A stretch of 21,687 bases of DNA from the NCBI GenBank assembly GCA_023441105.1, contig JAEZQX010000399.1:1-21687 (forward strand), read 5' to 3'. How positions within the stretch are numbered: the first letter of the stretch is position 1; each line of letters opens with the position of its first letter. The notes under the pieces are model-generated. The model was given only the letters and a program-made list of their open reading frames with translations. It did no database searches and was not told the DNA's origin. Positions 6,353-18,931 of the stretch are shown piece after piece. This stretch comes from Pseudomonadota bacterium. Its GTDB lineage: Bacteria; Pseudomonadota; Gammaproteobacteria; Burkholderiales; Burkholderiaceae. Both the position numbers and the translations under genes were made by a program.

Positions 6353-6468
6353 GGTCGGGGAATCTGGACGGTACCCCCGATCATACAAGCCTCGCCTTCC
6401 AGGCATGCCACAATCGGCTGGTGGCCACGGACCAATCAGAAGCAAGCCCAAGCCTGCCGCCGCCCGTG

Positions 6469-8655
6469 ATGTTGCCGGGGCCTGCGGCCGATGCTGCCGC
6501 GCGCACTGCCGCGCCGACCGCAAGCCGGGCGCCGGCGCGGCCCCGCGCGCCGCTGCTGTCGCTGCGCATCCTCGCGCTGCTCTGCATCGGCCTGCCCCTG
6601 CTGGTCTATGGCGTGGTCGGCGCCGTGCGCTACCAGCAGATCATCGCGGAGACCGAGGTCCGGCTCGATCGCGCGTTGCGCATCGCCACCGAGCACGCGC
6701 GACGGGTGCTGGAGACCAACGAGACCCTGCTGGCGCGCGCCGTCGAGGCCATCGGCGCGGCCGATGGCGAAACGATCCGCCGCCAGGAGGCGCGCATCCA
6801 CCAGCAGCTCGCCGCCATGTCGCTGAACAAGCCGCAGATCCAGGGGGTCTGGGTGGTGGACGAGGGCGGGGACATCGTCGCCAGTGACCGCATGCTGCCG
6901 GTCAAAGCCGGGCTGAACGTCGCCGATCGCCCCTACTTCCAGTGGCACGAGGATCGCCGCGGCGGAATCTTCGTCTCCGATCTGCTGGCCAGCCGCGTCA
7001 GCGGCCGGACGTTCTTCGACCTCAGCCGCGGCCGGTACGCGGCGGACGGCACCTTTGCCGGCACCGTCTCCACCAGCCTGGATCCCGAATACTTCGAGGC
7101 GTTCCACGGCGATCTCGCGGCCGACGAGCCGGGCCTGGCGATCACGATGCTGCGCGAGGACGGAGCCATCCTCTCGCGCTGGCCGCCGCTGCCCGAGGGC
7201 CCCGGCCGGCTCGCCGACGACAGCCCGGTGATGCGCCTGATCCGCGCCGGCCGGACCAGCGGCGGCACCCGCGGCATCTCTTCGGTCGACCAGCGCCAGC
7301 GGCTGCTGACCTTCACCCGGGTCGGCGACTTCCCTGTCTACCTCGGCACCGGCATGGCCATGCGCGAGATCCGGAGCCGCTGGCTCGACGAGATGTCGTG
7401 GCTCGCGGCTTTCGGGCTGCCGCCGTTGCTGGGCTTGTTCCTGGTGGCGCGCATCGCCATCGGCCGGACCCGCGATGCGCTCGACGCGGCGCATCGCCTC
7501 AGCGAGGAGACGCTGGCGCGGCGTCGGGTGGAGGAATCGCTGCTGCAGTCGCAGAAGCTCGAGGCGCTCGGTCGCCTCACGGGCGGGGTGGCGCACGACT
7601 TCAACAACGCGCTGATGGTGATCAGCAACAACCTCTTCCTGTTGAAGGAGAAGCAGCCCGAGGTCGACCGCGCGCGCGTCGCATCGATGGAACGGGCGGT
7701 GGAGTCGGCGACCAAGCTGACCCGCCAGCTGCTGGCCTTCTCGCGACGCCAGGCGCTGGTGCCGGAGTACGTGCGGCTGCAGGATCGGCTGCCGTCGTTT
7801 CGCGACCTCCTCGAGCCGGTGCTCGGGCGCCAGATCGAACTGGTGGTGATGACCGCGCAGGACACGCAGCCGATCATGATCGATCCGGCCGAGTTCGAGC
7901 TCGCGCTCATCAACCTGGCGGTCAATGCGCGCGATGCCATGTCGGGCGGCGGCCACTTCCGGCTCGCGGCGCGCAACGCGGCAGCCGATGAGCTGCCGCC
8001 GGGCCTCAAGCCGCCGATGGTGATGATCGAGGCGAACGACAGCGGCAAGGGTATCCCGCCGGAGCTGCTCGGCAAGGTGTTCGAGCCGTTCTTCACCACC
8101 AAGCCGGTGGGCGGCGGCACCGGCTTGGGCCTGAGCCAGATCTATGGGCTGTGCCAGCGCGGCGGCGGCCTGGCGACCATCCAGAGCCAGCTCGGCGTCG
8201 GCACCACGGTCAGGCTGTTTTTTCCGCCGGTGGCGGAGCGCCCGGCGGATGTGGCCAACGAACCGCCGGCGCTGCCGACCAATCTCGCTCGGACCGTCCT
8301 GCTGGTCGAAGACAACGACGAGGTGGCCGAAGCCCTGCAGCCGGTGCTGCAGTCCCTGGGCTGCCAAGTGACGCGGCTGGACCGGGCAGCCACCGCCGCG
8401 GAATGGCTCGGCCGCCAATCTCGCCTGCCGGACGTGCTGTTGTCCGACGTGGTCATGCCCGGAGAAATGGATGGCCTGACGCTGGCCCAGCGCGCCCGCG
8501 CCCGCTTTCCCGGGCTGCGCATCATTTTGATCACCGGGTATGCGGAGCAGATGGAGGCCATCTCCCGGCAGGGATTCGAGGTGATCCCCAAGCCGTGCTC
8601 GGCGGAGATTCTGGCGGCGGCCATCGCGCGGCAGGACGGTCAAAACCCAAGTTAA
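6469..8655 (+). CDS. Membrane-bound hybrid sensor histidine kinase with Cache-type sensor and receiver
   Basis: About 728 residues from ATG 6469; GTG 6466 or 6421 are in-frame alternatives, none with a clear ribosome site. Domains in order: Pro/Ala-rich cytoplasmic leader; first membrane helix (30-53); periplasmic Cache-like sensor (60-300; GVWVVDEGGDIVASD and NVADRPYFQWHED are typical); second helix (310-332); a short coiled coil; the phosphoacceptor motif LTGGVAHDFNN with His376; ATPase motifs with Asn486 (NLAVNARDAM), DSGKGIP, FEPFFTTKP and GTGLGLSQIYG; then a receiver with the acidic patch VEDND, phospho-Asp660 (LLSDVVMPG) and Lys708. The receiver lacks an output domain, so it needs a phosphotransfer or response-regulator partner not encoded here. 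It diverges from the FAH-family gene and ends just upstream of the adenylation operon. The ligand is unknown; small organic acids or amino acids are typical for Cache sensors. Confidence 0.9.
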   Translation: MLPGPAADAAARTAAPTASRAPARPRAPLLSLRILALLCIGLPLLVYGVVGAVRYQQIIAETEVRLDRALRIATEHARRVLETNETLLARAVEAIGAADGETIRRQEARIHQQLAAMSLNKPQIQGVWVVDEGGDIVASDRMLPVKAGLNVADRPYFQWHEDRRGGIFVSDLLASRVSGRTFFDLSRGRYAADGTFAGTVSTSLDPEYFEAFHGDLAADEPGLAITMLREDGAILSRWPPLPEGPGRLADDSPVMRLIRAGRTSGGTRGISSVDQRQRLLTFTRVGDFPVYLGTGMAMREIRSRWLDEMSWLAAFGLPPLLGLFLVARIAIGRTRDALDAAHRLSEETLARRRVEESLLQSQKLEALGRLTGGVAHDFNNALMVISNNLFLLKEKQPEVDRARVASMERAVESATKLTRQLLAFSRRQALVPEYVRLQDRLPSFRDLLEPVLGRQIELVVMTAQDTQPIMIDPAEFELALINLAVNARDAMSGGGHFRLAARNAAADELPPGLKPPMVMIEANDSGKGIPPELLGKVFEPFFTTKPVGGGTGLGLSQIYGLCQRGGGLATIQSQLGVGTTVRLFFPPVAERPADVANEPPALPTNLARTVLLVEDNDEVAEALQPVLQSLGCQVTRLDRAATAAEWLGRQSRLPDVLLSDVVMPGEMDGLTLAQRARARFPGLRIILITGYAEQMEAISRQGFEVIPKPCSAEILAAAIARQDGQNPS

Positions 8656-8726
8656 CAAAGTTCGCGGCCGTCCTTATTTAGTATCGAGGCAGCAGTGCCG
8701 AGGTGTTGGAGATGGAGCCGCAAGAC

Positions 8727-10331
8727 ATGGACGCAGTGGGCAGCCTGGCTGCCGCCGTCCATCGTCATGCCGTCGCCACGCCCTCGGCGCTCGCCGTCGC
8801 GTCTGCAGGACGCTTGCTCGACTACCGGCAACTGGCGGGACAGGCATCCCGTCTCGCCGGGTACCTGGCGGCAGCACCGGGATGGGCGGTGCCAGGGCAT
8901 GGCAACGACCGCCCGGAGCGCCCGCGGGTGGGTGTGCTTGCTTCCCGCAGTGCCGACGCCTGCATCGCCGTCCTTGGCGCGGCATGGGCAGGCGCGACCT
9001 ATGTGCCGTTGGGGCCGAGGCTGCCGGATGAGCGGCTTCTGGCGATCCTGTCGCGTTGCCGCCTGACGGCGATCGTCGCGGATGCCGTCGGCGCGAGCCG
9101 CCTCGATGGTCGCATCCTGCACGCGGCGCCGCCTTGCGTGCTGGCGCTGGGATCGAAGCCGAGCGACGGCGCGACGGAGGAGCGGGTGCAATGGATCGAC
9201 ACCGACGCGCCGTGGGATCGGCAAACCATCCCGGCACCGACGCCGATGGTCGCGTCCGATATCGCGTACATCATCTTCACGTCCGGCACCACCGGCGTGC
9301 CCAAGGGCGTGATGATCCCCTTGCGCGCCGCCCGGTACTACATCCGCACCATCACCGGGATGCTCGGGCTGGCGCCCTCGGACCGCGCCATGGAAAGCTG
9401 CGATCTGACCTTCGACTTCTCGGTGCACAACATGTTCAGCACCTGGGAGGCAGGGGCGTCCCTCCACCTGCTGCCTGCGGCTCGCGCCATGGGAGCGATC
9501 CGGTTTGCGCGCTCGAATCGCCTGACGGTATGGAACTCGGTTCCTTCGCTTGCCGGACTGCTGCGCCAGGTGAAGGCTCTGGCGCCCGGCGTGCTCCCGG
9601 ACCTGCGGCTCACGGTGTTCGGGGGCGAGCAGCTGTCGTGGCGCACGGTGCAGGCATGGCGGGCGGCAGCGCCGCAGAGCGCGATCTGGAACTTGTATGG
9701 ACCGACGGAAGCGACGGTGTTCTGCATGGGGCTGCCGCTCGCGGGACGGGCACCGATGGCCGATGGAAGAGACGTGATTGCCATCGGAACCGCATTCCCG
9801 GGCAGCGAGGCCGCCGTGCTCGACCCCCAAGGCCGTCCGGTTGCCGATGGCATTGCCGGCGAGCTTGCCATTGCAGGCGTGCAACTCGCCAGCGGCTACC
9901 TGAACGCAGCGGAGCAGACGGCAGCGCGCTTCCCGACCATCGATGGCAGGCGTTGGTATCTCACCGGCGATCTGGCGCGGCGCGATCCCGATGGCAGCTT
10001 CCAGTGGCTCGCGCGAGTGGACAACCAGGTCAAGCTGCTGGGGCACCGGGTCGAGCTCGAGGACGTGGATGCGCACCTGCGCGTCGTGGCCGATGCGGAT
10101 CTGGTGGGCACCGTCGCCTGGCCGCTGGCGGACGGTGACGCGCAGGGGCTCGTCGCCTTCTACGCCGGCGCAGTGCGCGACGAGGCAGGCATCATCGCGA
10201 CCCTCAAGCAGCGCCTGCCGCCCTACATGATTCCATCCCGTGTCGTGCGCCTGGATCGAATGCCGTTGAACGGCAACGGCAAGGTCGACCGCAGGGCGCT
10301 GCGCCAGCGTCTCGAAGAGGGACTCGCGTGA
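8727..10331 (+). CDS. Stand-alone amino-acid adenylation enzyme (DltA/AlmE-like)
   Basis: A 534-residue ANL-superfamily ligase resembling an NRPS adenylation domain without a fused carrier. Core motifs: P-loop FTSGTTGVPKG (184-194), TFDFSVHNMF (228-237) with Asp230 at the position that binds the alpha-amino group of amino acids, NLYGPTEAT (322-330), YLTGDLARRDPDG (411-423, Asp415), hinge region RVDNQVKLLGHRVELEDVD (430-448) and catalytic lysine in PLNGNGKVDR (Lys519). It should form aminoacyl-AMP and load the carrier encoded two genes downstream. ATG 8727 follows GGAG by nine bases; ATG 8712 or GTG 8703 are alternatives. An insert rich in Pro, Gly and Arg lies around residues 51-67. Its stop overlaps the next gene's start (TGATG). 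D-alanine or glycine are plausible substrates by family analogy, but specificity is inference. Confidence 0.88.
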   Translation: MDAVGSLAAAVHRHAVATPSALAVASAGRLLDYRQLAGQASRLAGYLAAAPGWAVPGHGNDRPERPRVGVLASRSADACIAVLGAAWAGATYVPLGPRLPDERLLAILSRCRLTAIVADAVGASRLDGRILHAAPPCVLALGSKPSDGATEERVQWIDTDAPWDRQTIPAPTPMVASDIAYIIFTSGTTGVPKGVMIPLRAARYYIRTITGMLGLAPSDRAMESCDLTFDFSVHNMFSTWEAGASLHLLPAARAMGAIRFARSNRLTVWNSVPSLAGLLRQVKALAPGVLPDLRLTVFGGEQLSWRTVQAWRAAAPQSAIWNLYGPTEATVFCMGLPLAGRAPMADGRDVIAIGTAFPGSEAAVLDPQGRPVADGIAGELAIAGVQLASGYLNAAEQTAARFPTIDGRRWYLTGDLARRDPDGSFQWLARVDNQVKLLGHRVELEDVDAHLRVVADADLVGTVAWPLADGDAQGLVAFYAGAVRDEAGIIATLKQRLPPYMIPSRVVRLDRMPLNGNGKVDRRALRQRLEEGLA

Positions 10332-11806
10332 TGACGCTGCAGGCCTTCGACCCGTCGTTCGCTGCCGCGCCGTCGCCGTCCGCGCCGCGCCGCTGCCGCA
10401 GCCTGTGGGCTTTCGATGAGCGCGAGGAAATCGTGCGGCTGGCGGGCACGCCAGCGGGCCGCCTGGTCCTGGTCTCGTTGTTCGCAGTTGCCGCCTGGCT
10501 TGCGAGCATCCATCCCATGGCGGTGGCAGTCGCGGCGGGCTTCGCTCATCTTCCGCGCTACCGCAGCTGGATCGCGCTCGGCGCCGCGTTGTCGGCGCTG
10601 ATCATGAATCCCGACGGCAGGATCTCGATCGACGGCATCGGCGCCATTCTCCTGCAGGAAGGCCTGGATGCGCGATCGGCATCTGCCTGGGGAATCACGG
10701 CGGCGGCCGTCGTGACCGCCTGCGCCGGCTGGCTGTTCGTCCTGATCCGCCGCGACAAGGCCCGGCTGGTGGCGCGGCGGCCGGCGCTGAGCCTGCTTGG
10801 TGCGTTGCTTGCCCTGTGCGCGATGGCGTCGCTGCCCTGGCCAGCCGCGCCGGTGCGCGCCGCCTGGTGGTCGGTCGTCGTGGTCTTCGCGGCCTTCTTC
10901 TGGTTCATTGCCTACGCGCTCGTCGACCAGCGCTCGCGCACGCCGGCGGCGCTGCCGTTCCAGCTGGGCATCCTGAATCCCTTCTGGGGTTCGAGCGCGA
11001 CGCCTTTCGGCAAAGGTGCCGCCTTCCTGCGCAAGCACCAGGCCAAGGACGACGTCGAGCTGGCAGTCACTCAGTTGAAGGGACTCAAGCTGCTGCTGTG
11101 GGCGCTTTTCCTGGCCCTGGCGGCAGCGCTTCTCGACGAAGCGCTCACCGACCGGCTCGGCATTCCCCGGCCGGACGACCTGTACGGTGCTTTCGCCCGT
11201 GGCGAGCCGTTCCAGTTGCACCTCGCATGGGCCGGCCTGGCCTGGGCCACCCTCGGCGGCACGCTGACGCTGGCGATCTGGGGACACGAGATCATCGCGA
11301 TCGCGCGGCTGGCCGGTTTCCGGCTGCCACGCAACACGTGGCGGCCCCTCCGATCGCGCAGCCTGGCGGAGTTCTGGAACCGCTACTACTACTATTTCAA
11401 GGAGTTGATGGTCGAGTTCTTCTTCATGCCGACCTTCCTCAGGTCGTTCCGGCAGCATCCGCGCCTTCGAGTGTTCTTCGCGACCTTCATGGCGGCCGGC
11501 GTCGGCAACGCCATCTACCACTTCATCAGAGACATCGAGTACGTCGCGCTTCTCGGCCCGGTGCAGGCATTCGAAGATTTCGCCAGCTATTTCCTGTATT
11601 GCTTCCTGCTCGCCATCGGCATCGGAATCTCGCAAGCCCGGATCAGCGCCGGGCGCCAGCTGCCGGTATCGCTGCTCGGGATGCTTTGGTCCGGCCTGTG
11701 CGTCTGGGGCTTCTTCATCTGCCTGCACGTGTTCAGCGACGAGTCGCGCACCCTGTCGCTGCGCGAGCGGCTCTCCTTCTTTGTCACTCTTTTCGGATAC
11801 GGATGA
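10331..11806 (+). CDS. Polytopic membrane protein, divergent MBOAT (DltB-like) acyltransferase candidate
   Basis: A 491-residue integral membrane protein with roughly 10 hydrophobic segments (about 44-60, 62-74, 80-92, 120-139, 152-170, 177-199, 252-269, 298-318, 381-398, 418-434 and 444-466). After a long loop comes SLAEFWNRYYYYFKELMVEF (344-363) with MPTF, then VFFATFMAAGVGNAIYHFIRD (381-401). This layout matches the MBOAT pattern of an (D/E)FWxRW-like motif followed by a membrane segment carrying the catalytic histidine; His397 is the candidate. In Dlt systems DltB moves the aminoacyl group from the carrier across the membrane. The match is by pattern only: the usual second motif (GLWHG-like) is altered to GVGNAIYH. 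ATG 10331 overlaps the ligase stop by one base (GTG 10328 is the alternative), and its stop overlaps the carrier start. A non-MBOAT transporter is possible. Confidence 0.65.
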   Translation: MTLQAFDPSFAAAPSPSAPRRCRSLWAFDEREEIVRLAGTPAGRLVLVSLFAVAAWLASIHPMAVAVAAGFAHLPRYRSWIALGAALSALIMNPDGRISIDGIGAILLQEGLDARSASAWGITAAAVVTACAGWLFVLIRRDKARLVARRPALSLLGALLALCAMASLPWPAAPVRAAWWSVVVVFAAFFWFIAYALVDQRSRTPAALPFQLGILNPFWGSSATPFGKGAAFLRKHQAKDDVELAVTQLKGLKLLLWALFLALAAALLDEALTDRLGIPRPDDLYGAFARGEPFQLHLAWAGLAWATLGGTLTLAIWGHEIIAIARLAGFRLPRNTWRPLRSRSLAEFWNRYYYYFKELMVEFFFMPTFLRSFRQHPRLRVFFATFMAAGVGNAIYHFIRDIEYVALLGPVQAFEDFASYFLYCFLLAIGIGISQARISAGRQLPVSLLGMLWSGLCVWGFFICLHVFSDESRTLSLRERLSFFVTLFGYG

Positions 11807-12078
11807 TGGACACGACCGCCAAGCAGGATCTGCGTGCATTTCTGTCCGGATGCCTCGGCGCCGCCGGCGACACGCACGAATTCTCCGACGACTCCTCGCT
11901 CTTTGTCAGCGGCAGGCTCGACTCGCTCACCATGACGAAGCTGGTGATGTTCCTCGAGGACTCGTTCGGCATCGACTTCGCAGAGGTGGAGTTCGACGTC
12001 GACCTGATCGACTCGGTGGAGGCGATCGAGGCACTGTTGCAGGATGCGGATGCTTCGCGCGGGACGCTCGCCGGATGA
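11803..12078 (+). CDS. Acyl/peptidyl carrier protein (DltC/AlmF-like)
   Basis: A 91-residue acidic four-helix carrier protein. The phosphopantetheine attachment site is Ser41 in SGRLDSLTMTKLVMFLED, preceded by the DDSSLFVSG loop; helix III follows in FEVEFD-like acidic sequence (EVEFDVDLIDSVEAIEALL). A 4'-phosphopantetheinyl transferase elsewhere must activate it. ATG 11803 overlaps the membrane-protein stop as ATGA (ATG 11806 is equally possible), so the three genes are coupled. With no fatty-acid or polyketide genes nearby and a free-standing adenylation enzyme in the same operon, it most likely carries the amino acid activated by that enzyme. Its length is slightly above the usual DltC because of a loose C-terminal tail of about ten residues. 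Confidence 0.88.
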   Translation: MMDTTAKQDLRAFLSGCLGAAGDTHEFSDDSSLFVSGRLDSLTMTKLVMFLEDSFGIDFAEVEFDVDLIDSVEAIEALLQDADASRGTLAG

Positions 12079-13458: not shown

Positions 13459-13534
13459 TTGCCCCCGAACCCGTTTGCTCCGAGAACGCCCTTCCGACCG
13501 ATCCTCGAACGTTCATCCAGAAGGAGATCGAGCC

Positions 13535-14350
13535 ATGGCTACCTTGACCCTGAACCCCCGTCCGGCCTTGCACGCCACCTGGCGCGCGCCCTGGCGGCTG
13601 GCCGCCGAGTTGCATGCCCGCGAGCCGCGACTGGCAATCTACGGCGCGCTGCTGCTGGCGCTGCTGCTGCCGATGGCGGTGGCCGCGGGCCTCGACGACC
13701 GGATGCTGCGCGATGTCAATGTCTGGATCAAGCCGATGAAGTTCTCGCTGTCCATCGCCGTGCTGGCCTTCACCACCGCCTGGTTCGCCGGTCATCTGCC
13801 GGAACGGGTCCGTACCGGCAGGGCGATGGACTGGATCGTCTGGCTGCTGGTGATGACCGGCAGCTTCGAGCTGGCGTACATCACGCTGCAAGCCGGGCTG
13901 GGCGCGGGTTCGCACTACAACCTGGTCGACGGCTTGCATATCGCCATGTATGCCCTGATGGGCATCGCCGCCCTGGTGCTGACGGCGACCCAGCCGATGC
14001 TCGCCTGGCTGCTCTATCGTCACGGAGACCGGTCGCTGCCACCCGCCTATCGCCAGGCCGTGCTGCTCGGGCTGGTGCTGACGTTCGTCATGGGTGCCGG
14101 GGCCGGCATGCTCCTGTCGAACCTCCAGCCGCCCGCCGGCGGCGCGGTCGTGCCGCTGTTCGGCTGGTCGCTGCAGGGCGGCGACCTGCGGCCGGCCCAT
14201 TTCGTGGGGATCCATGCCGAGCAGGTGCTGCCGCTCGCGGGCTTCGCCGCCGGGATGCTGGGCGTCGCGCGCGCGAAGCTGGCGGTGTGGGCTGCGACCC
14301 TGGCCTATGCAGCCTTGTTCGGCGCTCTGGTAGTCTGGGGGCTTTCCTGA
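13535..14350 (+). CDS. Unrecognised polytopic membrane protein (about seven helices)
   Basis: 271 residues, starting at ATG 13535 with a near-ideal AAGGAG eight bases upstream. Predicted helices: 33-52, 69-87, 99-118, 133-160, 173-194, 224-243 and 247-269. Distinct motifs are VNVWIKPMKFSLS (61-73) after helix 1, MTGSFELAYITLQA (107-120), NLVDGLHIAMYALMG (129-143) and DLRPAHFVGIHAEQVLP (217-233), with His222 and His227 near the last membrane pair. The conserved-looking charged residues and histidines inside or beside helices suggest ligand or cofactor binding, but I do not recognise an assigned function. It follows the ABA4-like gene, precedes the phosphoesterase by 26 bases, and is likely under the same TetR control. 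Confidence 0.8.
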   Translation: MATLTLNPRPALHATWRAPWRLAAELHAREPRLAIYGALLLALLLPMAVAAGLDDRMLRDVNVWIKPMKFSLSIAVLAFTTAWFAGHLPERVRTGRAMDWIVWLLVMTGSFELAYITLQAGLGAGSHYNLVDGLHIAMYALMGIAALVLTATQPMLAWLLYRHGDRSLPPAYRQAVLLGLVLTFVMGAGAGMLLSNLQPPAGGAVVPLFGWSLQGGDLRPAHFVGIHAEQVLPLAGFAAGMLGVARAKLAVWAATLAYAALFGALVVWGLS

Positions 14351-16545: not shown

Positions 16546-17952
16546 TCAGTCCCAGGTGGGGGGCTGTCGATAGCCCGCCGCCACCAGGTCCACCGCGTGT
16601 GCCACGGCCAGCAGCGCTTCGTCGCCGTAACGCGGCCCGACCAGTTGCACGCCCACCGGCAGGCCGTCCGGCGCCAGACCAGCCGGGATGACCACGCAGG
16701 GGTTGCCGAGCAGGCTGAAGGGGAACAGGTAGTGGTCGACGAAGCGGGAGTCCACCAGGGTGCCGTCGATGTCGAAGGGTGCGCGGGGCGGCGAATGGAC
16801 GAAGGCGTTGCCGTTGGCTGCCGGGCACAGGAAGGCGTCGAAGCGGCGGGTGAGGATGTCGTCGACCGCGCGCACCAGCGCATCCCGCGCGGCCTGGACC
16901 TTGATCCAGGCGACGAGGCCGCTGGCGGCCGCGGGTCCTGCCTTCACCGGCAGGCTCATGCCCATCATTTCCATGACGGCGGCGGAAACGAGCGGGAAAG
17001 CTGCCTCCCACACCGCCATCAGCTGCTCGCGACTGAACCCGGGATCCCCTTCCTCCACCCGTGCGCCGGCGTCCTCGAGCCGGCGGGCGACCTGCTCGAC
17101 GGCCGCCCGCACCGCGTTGGCGGTGGGCACGCCGCTCCAGCTGCTGCGCCACAGGATGCGCAGCGATTTCGGCTCGCGGCGTGGTGCGCGGCGCCACGGC
17201 ACCGGCGCGACCTCGATGTCGCTGCCGTCCGGGCCGACCAGCAGTGCTGCCAGCAGCGCCAGGTCGTCGATGCTGCGTGCCAGCGGGCCATAGCTGCAGA
17301 GCTGCCGGTCCATCCGCGGCACGCCGGGTGGCGGTGGAATGTGGCCGGTGCCCGGCACGCGGTTGGCGGTCGGCTTGAAGCCGTAGATGCCGCAGTAGTG
17401 GGCCGGGATGCGGATCGATCCGCTCATGTCGCTGCCGACGTCGAACGGCGCGAGACCGGCCGCCACCGCCGCTGCCGCGCCGCCGCTCGAGCCGCCCGGC
17501 GTTCGTGAAGGATCCCACGGATTGCTGGTGCGGCCGAAGATGTCGTTGCTGGTCTGCAGGCTCATCGCCAATGGCGGCACGTTCGTCTTGCCGAGCAGGA
17601 TCGCACCCGCCGCCTTGAGCCGGGCTGCCACGGTACTGTCGTGGGACGGCACGTGATCCGCCAGCGGCGGATGGCCGGCAGTGGTCCGCAGGCCCGCGGT
17701 TTCGTAGCAGTCCTTGAGGGTGAATGGGACGCCGTGGAGCGCCCCGCGGCGGCCATCCTGTTCCGCCTGCGTGTCGGCCGCGCGCGCCCGCAGTCGCGCA
17801 CCCTCCGGATCGAGGGTCACGATGGCGTTGAGGCGCGGGTTGTGCCGGTCGATGCGCGCCAGCAGGTCGTCGAGCAGCTCGACGCAGGAGGCCTCACGCC
17901 GGCGCAGGAGCGCTGCCAGCCCGCTGGCGGTGTGCTCGCCGAGCCGCGCCAT
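16546..17952 (-). CDS. Amidase signature family hydrolase
   Basis: 468 residues, normal family length, hydrolysing a carboxamide to acid and ammonia in the cytoplasm. The Ser-cisSer-Lys triad is complete: Lys80 (GVPFTLKDCYETAG), cis-Ser155 (TPGGSSGGAAAAVAAG) and nucleophile Ser179 (GSDMSGSIRIPA, then YGFKPT). The glycine usually two residues before the nucleophile is Ser177 here, a mild deviation in the oxyanion-hole strand. C-terminal NPCVVIPAGLAPDGLPVGVQLVG is typical. ATG 17952 has a GGGGGCGAG stretch upstream. GatA is unlikely, since no gatB/gatC are nearby; a catabolic aryl/acyl amidase is more likely. It precedes the Tat-exported hydrolase. Confidence 0.9.
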   Translation of the reverse strand: MARLGEHTASGLAALLRRREASCVELLDDLLARIDRHNPRLNAIVTLDPEGARLRARAADTQAEQDGRRGALHGVPFTLKDCYETAGLRTTAGHPPLADHVPSHDSTVAARLKAAGAILLGKTNVPPLAMSLQTSNDIFGRTSNPWDPSRTPGGSSGGAAAAVAAGLAPFDVGSDMSGSIRIPAHYCGIYGFKPTANRVPGTGHIPPPPGVPRMDRQLCSYGPLARSIDDLALLAALLVGPDGSDIEVAPVPWRRAPRREPKSLRILWRSSWSGVPTANAVRAAVEQVARRLEDAGARVEEGDPGFSREQLMAVWEAAFPLVSAAVMEMMGMSLPVKAGPAAASGLVAWIKVQAARDALVRAVDDILTRRFDAFLCPAANGNAFVHSPPRAPFDIDGTLVDSRFVDHYLFPFSLLGNPCVVIPAGLAPDGLPVGVQLVGPRYGDEALLAVAHAVDLVAAGYRQPPTWD

Positions 17953-18063
17953 CTCGCCCCCGGTGAAATACCCGATCGACGATCATGGCACTTCGGCCGC
18001 GGGTCGCCAAGGCCCGCGAAACGTCCCGCAACAGATGGACCGGCAGGCCGCGCGCCGCCGCCG

Positions 18064-18495
18064 TCAGCCCCTGGATCGGGGTCTTCTGTTGCGCTTTTCC
18101 TGCATCCCGTCGGGCCTGCTTTCGACGAAATGCTGCAGCCTCGCGAGCGCCTGGTCCCATTGCAGGGATACCGTGTCCAGGTAGGAACGGGCCTGCGCGA
18201 GCGGCGCCGGTGCGAAGGCGAACTGGCTCTCGCGACCGATCCTGATCGAACTGACCAGGCCGGCCTCCTGCAGCACGCGCAGGTGCTTGGTCACGCCCTG
18301 CCGGGTCAGGCCGAGGCCATCGGTCAGCCGGGTGATCGACCGCGCCTGGCCATCGCTCAGGCGCGCGACGATCCGCAGGCGGGTCGCATCGCCCAGCGCG
18401 GCGAAGATCGGCGCCGCGTCGGCCGGCGCTTGTCGCCCCCGGGGGACCAGCGTGCGAGCGGCCCCCGCCCTGCCGCCGGCATCAGTTCTCGACAT
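18064..18495 (-). CDS. ArsR/SmtB-family transcriptional repressor
   Basis: 143 residues. A winged helix-turn-helix spans about residues 26-95: PIFAALGDATRLRIVARLSDG, then SITRLTDGLGLTRQGVTKHL as recognition segment and VSSIRIGRESQFAFAP as wing. No CxC metal motif is present, so it is not the metal-sensing type; it matches the ArsR group paired with SRPBCC proteins. Its ATG at 18495 lies inside the SRPBCC 3' end (14-bp overlap), so the two are coupled. The two palindromes at 18936-18953 and 18981-18996 are the obvious candidate operators. The final residues (QEKRNRRPRSRG) are a basic tail. Confidence 0.9.
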   Translation of the reverse strand: MSRTDAGGRAGAARTLVPRGRQAPADAAPIFAALGDATRLRIVARLSDGQARSITRLTDGLGLTRQGVTKHLRVLQEAGLVSSIRIGRESQFAFAPAPLAQARSYLDTVSLQWDQALARLQHFVESRPDGMQEKRNRRPRSRG

Positions 18496-18931
18496 GCTCG
18501 GCGATGTACTTGGCCTGGGCGTTCCAGCCTTCGGTGTTCATGCGCAAGGCGGTGAGGCGGCGGGGGTCGTCGGGCAGCGACGCGAAGCCGGATTCGCTGA
18601 TGTGCAGGCGGGTGCCGCCGGCGATCGGCTCGAGCCGGAACTCCACCAACGTGGTCGGTTCGCGCGAGTAATCGGCGTCCGGATTGTCCGAATAGGGGCA
18701 CCAGGTGAACGAGAACAGCCGTTCGGGGTCCATGGCCTTGACCGTCGCCTCCCACCGGAAGTGCTCGTAGCCGGGATGGGTGATGTGGCCGCGCGAGATC
18801 TCGCCCACGCGGAAGGGTCCGTCGAGCCTGGCGCGGAACCACTGCCCGAACTCCACGTGATCGGTGAGGGCGCGCCAGACCCGCGCGACCGGGGCTTTCA
18901 GTTCAATGGTCTTCTCGATGCGATCCTGCAT
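18482..18931 (-). CDS. SRPBCC (AHSA1-like) domain protein
   Basis: 149 residues forming one SRPBCC/START-like ligand-binding fold: RIEKTIELKAPVARVWRALTDH (4-25), FGQWFRARLDGPFRVGE, WEATVKAMDPERLFSFTWCPY, TTLVEFRLEP and a C-terminal helix ESGFASLP...WNAQAKYIAEH. AHSA1-like proteins linked to ArsR regulators are very common, but their ligand is mostly unknown. ATG 18931 sits ten bases after a perfect AGGAGG, and that ribosome site lies inside the palindrome 18936-18953, so a bound repressor could block both transcription and initiation. It is transcribed first, then overlaps the ArsR gene. The reading frame is open further upstream, but the strong ribosome site and family length fix this start. 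Confidence 0.88.
   Translation of the reverse strand: MQDRIEKTIELKAPVARVWRALTDHVEFGQWFRARLDGPFRVGEISRGHITHPGYEHFRWEATVKAMDPERLFSFTWCPYSDNPDADYSREPTTLVEFRLEPIAGGTRLHISESGFASLPDDPRRLTALRMNTEGWNAQAKYIAEHVEN

Follow-up and report, generated by a model that had tools for sequence, protein, structure and literature searches.

What might an amino-acid ligase, a membrane acyltransferase homologue and a carrier protein do together in a Gram-negative bacterium when neither DltD nor an AlmG-type transferase accompanies them? The question is raised by a three-gene cassette on contig JAEZQX010000399.1 of a Burkholderiaceae bacterium (assembly GCA_023441105.1), of which we analysed positions 1 to 21,687, a stretch of 21,687 nucleotides called the window here. 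A first-pass annotation of this DNA had described three contiguous genes with overlapping starts and stops, and the coordinates agree: the open reading frames (ORFs) of the ligase (A), the membrane protein (M) and the carrier (C) follow one another on the + strand with 4-nucleotide overlaps at both junctions (GTGA for A/M, ATGA for M/C). Our preferred reading, with a probability of roughly one half (0.52), is that they form a three-protein aminoacyl-transfer system in which M transfers the aminoacyl group directly to a membrane-embedded acceptor, without an SGNH relay. The parts of the cassette are as follows.

8727..10331, + strand: A, stand-alone amino-acid adenylation enzyme; ATG start at 8727, GTG at 8703 also possible
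Codon 9414-9416, + strand: pocket Asp of A (equivalent of PheA Asp235); pocket code DFHNVGLVFK, by alignment
10328..11806, + strand: M, 492-residue membrane protein of the MBOAT superfamily, putative aminoacyltransferase
Codon 11378-11380, + strand: invariant Asn351 of M, by conservation
Codon 11519-11521, + strand: putative catalytic His398 of M, by conservation
11803..12078, + strand: C, stand-alone phosphopantetheine carrier protein; start at ATG 11803 or ATG 11806
Codon 11923-11925, + strand: attachment Ser of C, in the motif RLDSL

We evaluated whether the three genes form a conserved unit by collecting relatives of M. A protein search returned 810 relatives among 7994 scored candidates; within the best 120 of the 810, those with names are mostly called 'hypothetical protein' and one (P0100) is named DltB by its source. 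The nearest named relatives are from Betaproteobacteria, in keeping with a Gram-negative host. An alignment of 32 M relatives led to 77 loci from named genomes, or 78 with the window. The 77 are mainly from Betaproteobacteria, with Bradyrhizobium and other Proteobacteria also represented, and cassette members are spread over four phyla (Proteobacteria, Nitrospirota, Acidobacteriota and Gemmatimonadota), including the cultivable genera Noviherbaspirillum, Bradyrhizobium and Dechloromonas and the wastewater genus Accumulibacter. Gene order was classified by six-frame profile searches in the 62 loci with enough flanking DNA, window included, the 16 with M near a contig end being excluded. The order A-M-C was found in 46 of the 62, three of which (L038, L068, L070) were moved into this class by hand on their coordinates, the script's distance threshold having excluded them; A and M overlap by 4 nucleotides in 27 of the 43 loci that the script itself classed as A-M-C. 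Four loci read A-C-M, six hold all three genes in another placement (L029, L031, L046, L059, L071, L056), one has A-M with a contig end soon after (L030), and five have M alone (L022, L027, L050, L064, L076). A-M-C recurs much too often for chance to explain the arrangement. The profile search and neighbourhood survey proposed in the first-pass annotation thus found A and C matching their families and the gene order conserved.

The loci with M alone are in part accounted for elsewhere in their genomes. For three of the five, an A-C pair lies at another place (L124 and L125 for L050 and L064, L123 for L027); the genome of L027 also holds two complete cassettes (L015, L020), and that of L022 appears to hold L018 as well, where M and C are accompanied by an A truncated at a contig end. 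No close A was seen in the genome of L076, itself a fragment. The pairs L123, L124 and L125 have no adjoining M, and the M of L050 adjoins scpA/scpB. Over 53 loci the pairwise distances of the three proteins correlate (A-M r 0.80, A-C 0.84, M-C 0.91; permutation p 0.0005 each), and some such correlation would be expected from shared genome ancestry by itself. In the order to which L001's genome belongs, a survey scoring at most five candidates per genome found full members in 5 of 300 genomes (that genome included; one member divergent, 190 bits), and the cassette is therefore rare and patchy there. Four loci of Candidatus Accumulibacter (L003, L004, L007, L011) carry a second full-length M directly 3' of C, giving A-M-C-M; the second M possibly provides a second acceptor specificity or a heteromer.

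The ligase has the profile and the residues of an enzyme acting on amino acids. A scored 217 bits against PF00501 and passed the amino-acid adenylation model TIGR01733 (319.9 bits, cut-off 317.4), with fatty-acyl-CoA ligase models scoring lower; against the DltA model TIGR01734 it reached 226.2 bits, far under the cut-off of 559.85. Asp238 and Lys527 of the window's A align with pocket residues Asp235 and Lys517, and 63 of the 69 rows of the A-family alignment have both; the other six are misaligned or belong to different AMP-binding proteins. An adenylation enzyme with an amino-acid-binding Asp, as first annotated, is therefore what the TIGR01733 score and the aligned pocket Asp support. An acyl-CoA-type ligase or one from a nonribosomal peptide synthetase (NRPS) cluster had been named beforehand as a finding that would overturn that annotation; A instead scores as an amino-acid adenylation enzyme, and the window proteins scanned include no condensation domain or multimodular synthetase, so no NRPS cluster is seen in the window.

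The pocket of A gives a hint of the substrate. Read by alignment, the window's code is DFHNVGLVFK, which 19 more A proteins among the 69 rows share. An excerpt of PMC12283262 gives threonine-type codes including DFWNIGMVHK and an ornithine-type code DVWNIGLIHK; of the codes given there, the window's is identical to the former at 6 of 10 positions, with two more conservative, and to the latter at five. As a first guess only, the substrate would be threonine or a relative. The code is exact in 19 of 29 rows picked as a clade of the M tree, and within these 29 rows conservation is higher at the eight variable positions of the pocket than in equally variable columns outside it (0.69 versus 0.47, p 0.007). 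The 21 pocket codes on the M tree of 53 rows can be explained by 20 changes, as few as 21 codes allow. In that tree M of the window groups with that of L001, whose code is DVQIIGHVCK. Because the codes of the remaining clades are unrelated, the amino acid used probably differs between clades.

C is a carrier protein, in keeping with the first-pass annotation: it passed PF00550 (25.4 bits, cut-off 20.8), and its attachment Ser is present in 53 of 53 aligned carriers. It scored 19.4 bits on the DltC model TIGR01688, under the cut-off of 52.35, and its best NCBIfam match was the acyl carrier of ornithine-lipid synthesis (44.9 bits, far under the cut-off of 130).

M is, by remote homology, a divergent member of the MBOAT superfamily. 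This placement rests on profile comparison. Aligned by hhalign with 19 PF03062 proteins (19 of 24 fetched from the same genomes and chosen for a long ORF with the canonical motif), the M family gave a probability of 93.5 (E 2.3e-7), or 93.2 when the set was larger; the controls stayed at 0.2 and 0.4 (two reversed alignments) and at or below 0.5 (five with shuffled columns). Weak matches of the M profile in 24 further genomes of the 300 fall on the MBOAT-aligned stretch, and PF03062 was present in 10 of the 10 weak-match proteins scanned. The M profile matched no MBOAT chain among PDB sequences, where it gave chance matches only (E 1 or worse), and M had zero matches in NCBIfam at E 0.001. Judged by these model searches, M is a separate family without a Pfam or NCBIfam model. 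A crude averaged hydropathy plot, from which a helix count is unreliable, shows several hydrophobic stretches. Conservation was read from 185 M sequences, 66 of them from the loci and window and 119 contributed by the protein search; the set includes near-copies. Asn351, Tyr356, Lys358, Glu359, Gly393, Gln249, Lys251 and Lys254 occur in 185 of 185, and His398, which aligns near the conserved MBOAT His, in 184 with one gap, making it the putative catalytic residue.

The evidence on how the aminoacyl group would leave M comes from the hand-off components. Known bacterial envelope-modifying MBOATs have an SGNH partner and a shuttle tyrosine: PatA passes acetyl via the Tyr of a C-terminal FxYxxF toward its SGNH partner, and DltX supplies the FxYxxF for DltB, with the same proposed for other MBOAT-SGNH pairs (excerpt of PMC12148441). 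No M protein among the 185 has FxYxxF in its last 80 residues; widening to the last 120 yielded one internal match, in L042, whose M is cut by the contig and has the motif 104 residues before its end, and none terminal. Thirty-one of 33 ordinary MBOATs (19 from the same genomes plus 14 of 15 weak-match proteins) have a terminal FxYxxF, at a shuffled-tail rate of 0.02, and the two that do not are incomplete, L082 being cut by an in-frame stop and L086 running off its DNA. When the DNA from -5 to +4 kb around M was searched at the 78 loci for micro-ORFs resembling DltX, seven weak matches emerged, none convincing. The nearest to candidates are an ORF of 72 residues with an ATG start (L042) and the last part of an open frame of 173 residues (L069); all seven were judged to be chance. 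DltD was over its cut-off in none of 43 genomes, those of 44 of the 77 loci, in a genome-wide search that covered DltD and not other SGNH enzymes. The single sub-threshold match (20.8 bits, cut-off 22.7) lies in G034, the genome of L042, on the same contig as the ordinary MBOAT L100, which has FIYFQF; as the two are about 1.2 kb apart, we take the match to be L100's partner. The 18 window proteins scanned include no DltD and no lipid A acyltransferase family, so that the earlier statement that neither DltD nor an AlmG-type transferase is present holds in these scans.

These results suggest the following mechanism. As its family implies, A would use ATP to activate one alpha-amino acid, in the window's clade perhaps threonine or a relative, and would then attach it through a thioester bond to the phosphopantetheine of C. 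M would then take the aminoacyl group from C, with His398 carrying out the transfer, as remote homology and the conserved residues suggest. Because no shuttle Tyr motif, no convincing DltX-like peptide and no DltD were found, we propose that M would transfer the group directly to an acceptor that has access to its active site inside the membrane. The receiving group would most likely be a membrane-lipid hydroxyl or amine, without an SGNH relay to a polymer. MBOATs without SGNH partners act on membrane-embedded substrates, and a membrane lipid is preferred for this reason and because the polymer relay seems to be missing. That apparent gap points to a membrane lipid or other membrane-embedded acceptor rather than to lipopolysaccharide (LPS), a glycan or a periplasmic protein. 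A hopanoid (aminoacyl bacteriohopanetetrol) was considered as a general acceptor and rejected, hopene cyclase being over its cut-off in only 10 of 43 genomes.

Several observations weigh against direct transfer by an MBOAT-type M. Pfam gave zero matches for M even at E 10, the MBOAT model PF03062 included, and the hhalign match is limited to the C-terminal part (columns 294-514). The position of the canonical FWRRWH His is not conserved, being Tyr in 95, His in 53 and Ser in 17 of the 185 sequences. The active site of DltB comprises His289 and His336 (excerpt of PMC11035591), and we have taken the FWRRWH His as the equivalent of His289, an assignment of our own. The MBOAT-like membrane protein of the first-pass annotation is thus borne out by profile comparison, but not by Pfam or NCBIfam models or by conservation of the first motif His. 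In addition, the genome-wide search for SGNH enzymes was confined to DltD, many of the 43 genomes are metagenome bins, and clade-specific tailoring genes beside some cassettes fit a small-molecule pathway equally well.

Such a pathway is the alternative that survives best, though we consider it unlikely. The cassette would be its core: A and C would make an aminoacyl thioester, tailoring enzymes would modify it in some lineages, and M would join it to a small hydrophobic co-substrate, giving a diffusible or secreted metabolite. Tailoring genes do adjoin some cassettes. A methyltransferase lies directly before A in Bradyrhizobium (scanned in L040:6961-8394 and in L055), and in L035:6779-9877 it is fused to A in a single 1033-residue protein. 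A radical SAM protein and a methyltransferase lie 3' of C in L002, and an ORF for a pyridoxal phosphate-decarboxylase starts 3 nucleotides 3' of C in L010. Six cassettes with the code DPGGSGLVDK (L058, L046, L053, L061, L067, L075) adjoin, by clustering, fatty-acid-desaturase-family and ACT-domain proteins, the pair at L058:11655-13079 being the one scanned singly. The window itself, however, has no tailoring neighbour, and M is a membrane acyltransferase homologue. The wider flanks were sampled at 49 cassettes other than the window's, taking no more than two genes per side, with sizes of 90-1000 residues and a list ended at 49,000 residues, which yielded 146 proteins from 40 of the 49 loci. 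Their commonest Pfam families were methyltransferases (8) and H+ pyrophosphatase, TctC, BamE and NodS (6 each); among the 25 commonest of 164 flank families there were no condensation or thioesterase families, which argues against a small-molecule pathway, and no SGNH or lipid A acyltransferase families. No conserved fourth gene was found, the widest families occurring in 17 and 14 of the 78 loci with ORFs antisense to A, M or C excluded; one scanned member of each was an ABC-transporter ATPase and a TctC receptor.

Less probable again is a Dlt-like relay: an SGNH-type enzyme encoded elsewhere would receive the aminoacyl group from M and use it to modify LPS or some other polymer. The component types match DltA, DltB and DltC, and A resembles PDB 4oxi (222.9 bits), which we take to be AlmE. 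Against a relay stand the terminal FxYxxF missing from all 185 M proteins, the want of a convincing DltX-like micro-ORF, the 43 genomes without DltD over its cut-off, and the absence of SGNH from the 25 commonest flank families. Since M is a separate family, has no shuttle Tyr motif and does not conserve the first His, the cassette is not simply a Dlt system minus DltD. The 'reduced envelope-modifying system' of the first-pass annotation is accordingly retained as one conserved ligase-carrier-MBOAT unit without DltD or AlmG, and given up as far as it implied a Dlt system that had merely lost a part.

Very improbable is a third scheme, in which A is a fatty-acyl ligase, C an acyl carrier and M an enzyme that attaches a fatty acid to a lipid: fatty acyl groups are common MBOAT substrates and C's best, far sub-threshold NCBIfam match is to an ornithine-lipid acyl carrier, but A passes TIGR01733 and scores lower on fatty-acyl-CoA ligase models, the pocket Asp and Lys are kept in 63 of 69 A-family rows, and the pocket is conserved within its clade.

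By family scans of the window's proteins, the genes around the cassette are of ordinary types. Its 5' neighbour is as follows.

6442-8655, + strand (that of A): hybrid histidine kinase (HisKA, HATPase, receiver), ending 71 nucleotides before A's ATG

This kinase may be co-transcribed with the cassette or act as its regulator. On the 3' side lie a convergent TetR regulator and then ABA4-like and phosphoesterase genes. Two predicted ORFs in the window, 13532-14347 (272 residues) and 17641-18552 (304 residues), had zero Pfam matches.

Returning to direct transfer by M, a broader claim can be made tentatively, with the odds somewhat against it: the cassette may represent an SGNH-independent, carrier-dependent class of MBOAT that forms a direct aminoacyl ester or amide on a membrane lipid in at least four phyla, with changes in the pocket of A giving lineage-specific aminoacyl lipids. 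No description of this cassette was found in the titles and abstract openings of the open-licence papers listed by literature searches. If the claim is true, a cassette with neither SGNH partner nor shuttle tyrosine would be a simpler route for placing amino acids on membrane components in bacteria without teichoic acid. The pocket codes give substrate guesses, and there are members in cultivable genera.

The known systems closest in composition each share only part of this design. The Gram-positive D-alanylation system Dlt (DltABCD(X)) likewise combines a ligase, a carrier and an MBOAT-superfamily protein, and a carrier thioester would be the expected donor in both. The cassette differs from it in having no detected DltD, convincing DltX or shuttle Tyr motif, in scores of A and C far under the DltA and DltC cut-offs, in an M unmatched by Pfam and NCBIfam models whose first motif His is not conserved, and in a ligase pocket that varies by clade. 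A Gram-negative dlt-like system also exists, at the dra locus of Bordetella. AlmEFG of Vibrio, which places glycine on lipid A, shares the stand-alone amino-acid ligase and carrier and the Gram-negative host. Its AlmG is lipid A acyltransferase-like, whereas the transferase here is an MBOAT homologue, not of the AlmG type. The pocket of A is also unlike the glycine code DILQLGMIWK given in the excerpt of PMC12283262, a published glycine code and not AlmE's own. PatA/PatB, AlgI and other MBOAT-SGNH pairs resemble the cassette in their MBOAT-superfamily membrane enzyme with an invariant His; PatA, however, uses an acetyl-CoA donor, a C-terminal FxYxxF and an SGNH partner (excerpt of PMC12148441), whereas M has no such motif and an SGNH partner was not found in the searches above. 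Finally, the best NCBIfam match of C is a carrier model named for the OlsHI ornithine-lipid pathway. An excerpt of PMC12493201 describes a GH3-like enzyme and an alpha/beta-hydrolase as enzymes of that pathway, and compared with that description the ligase and transferase of the cassette belong to other types.

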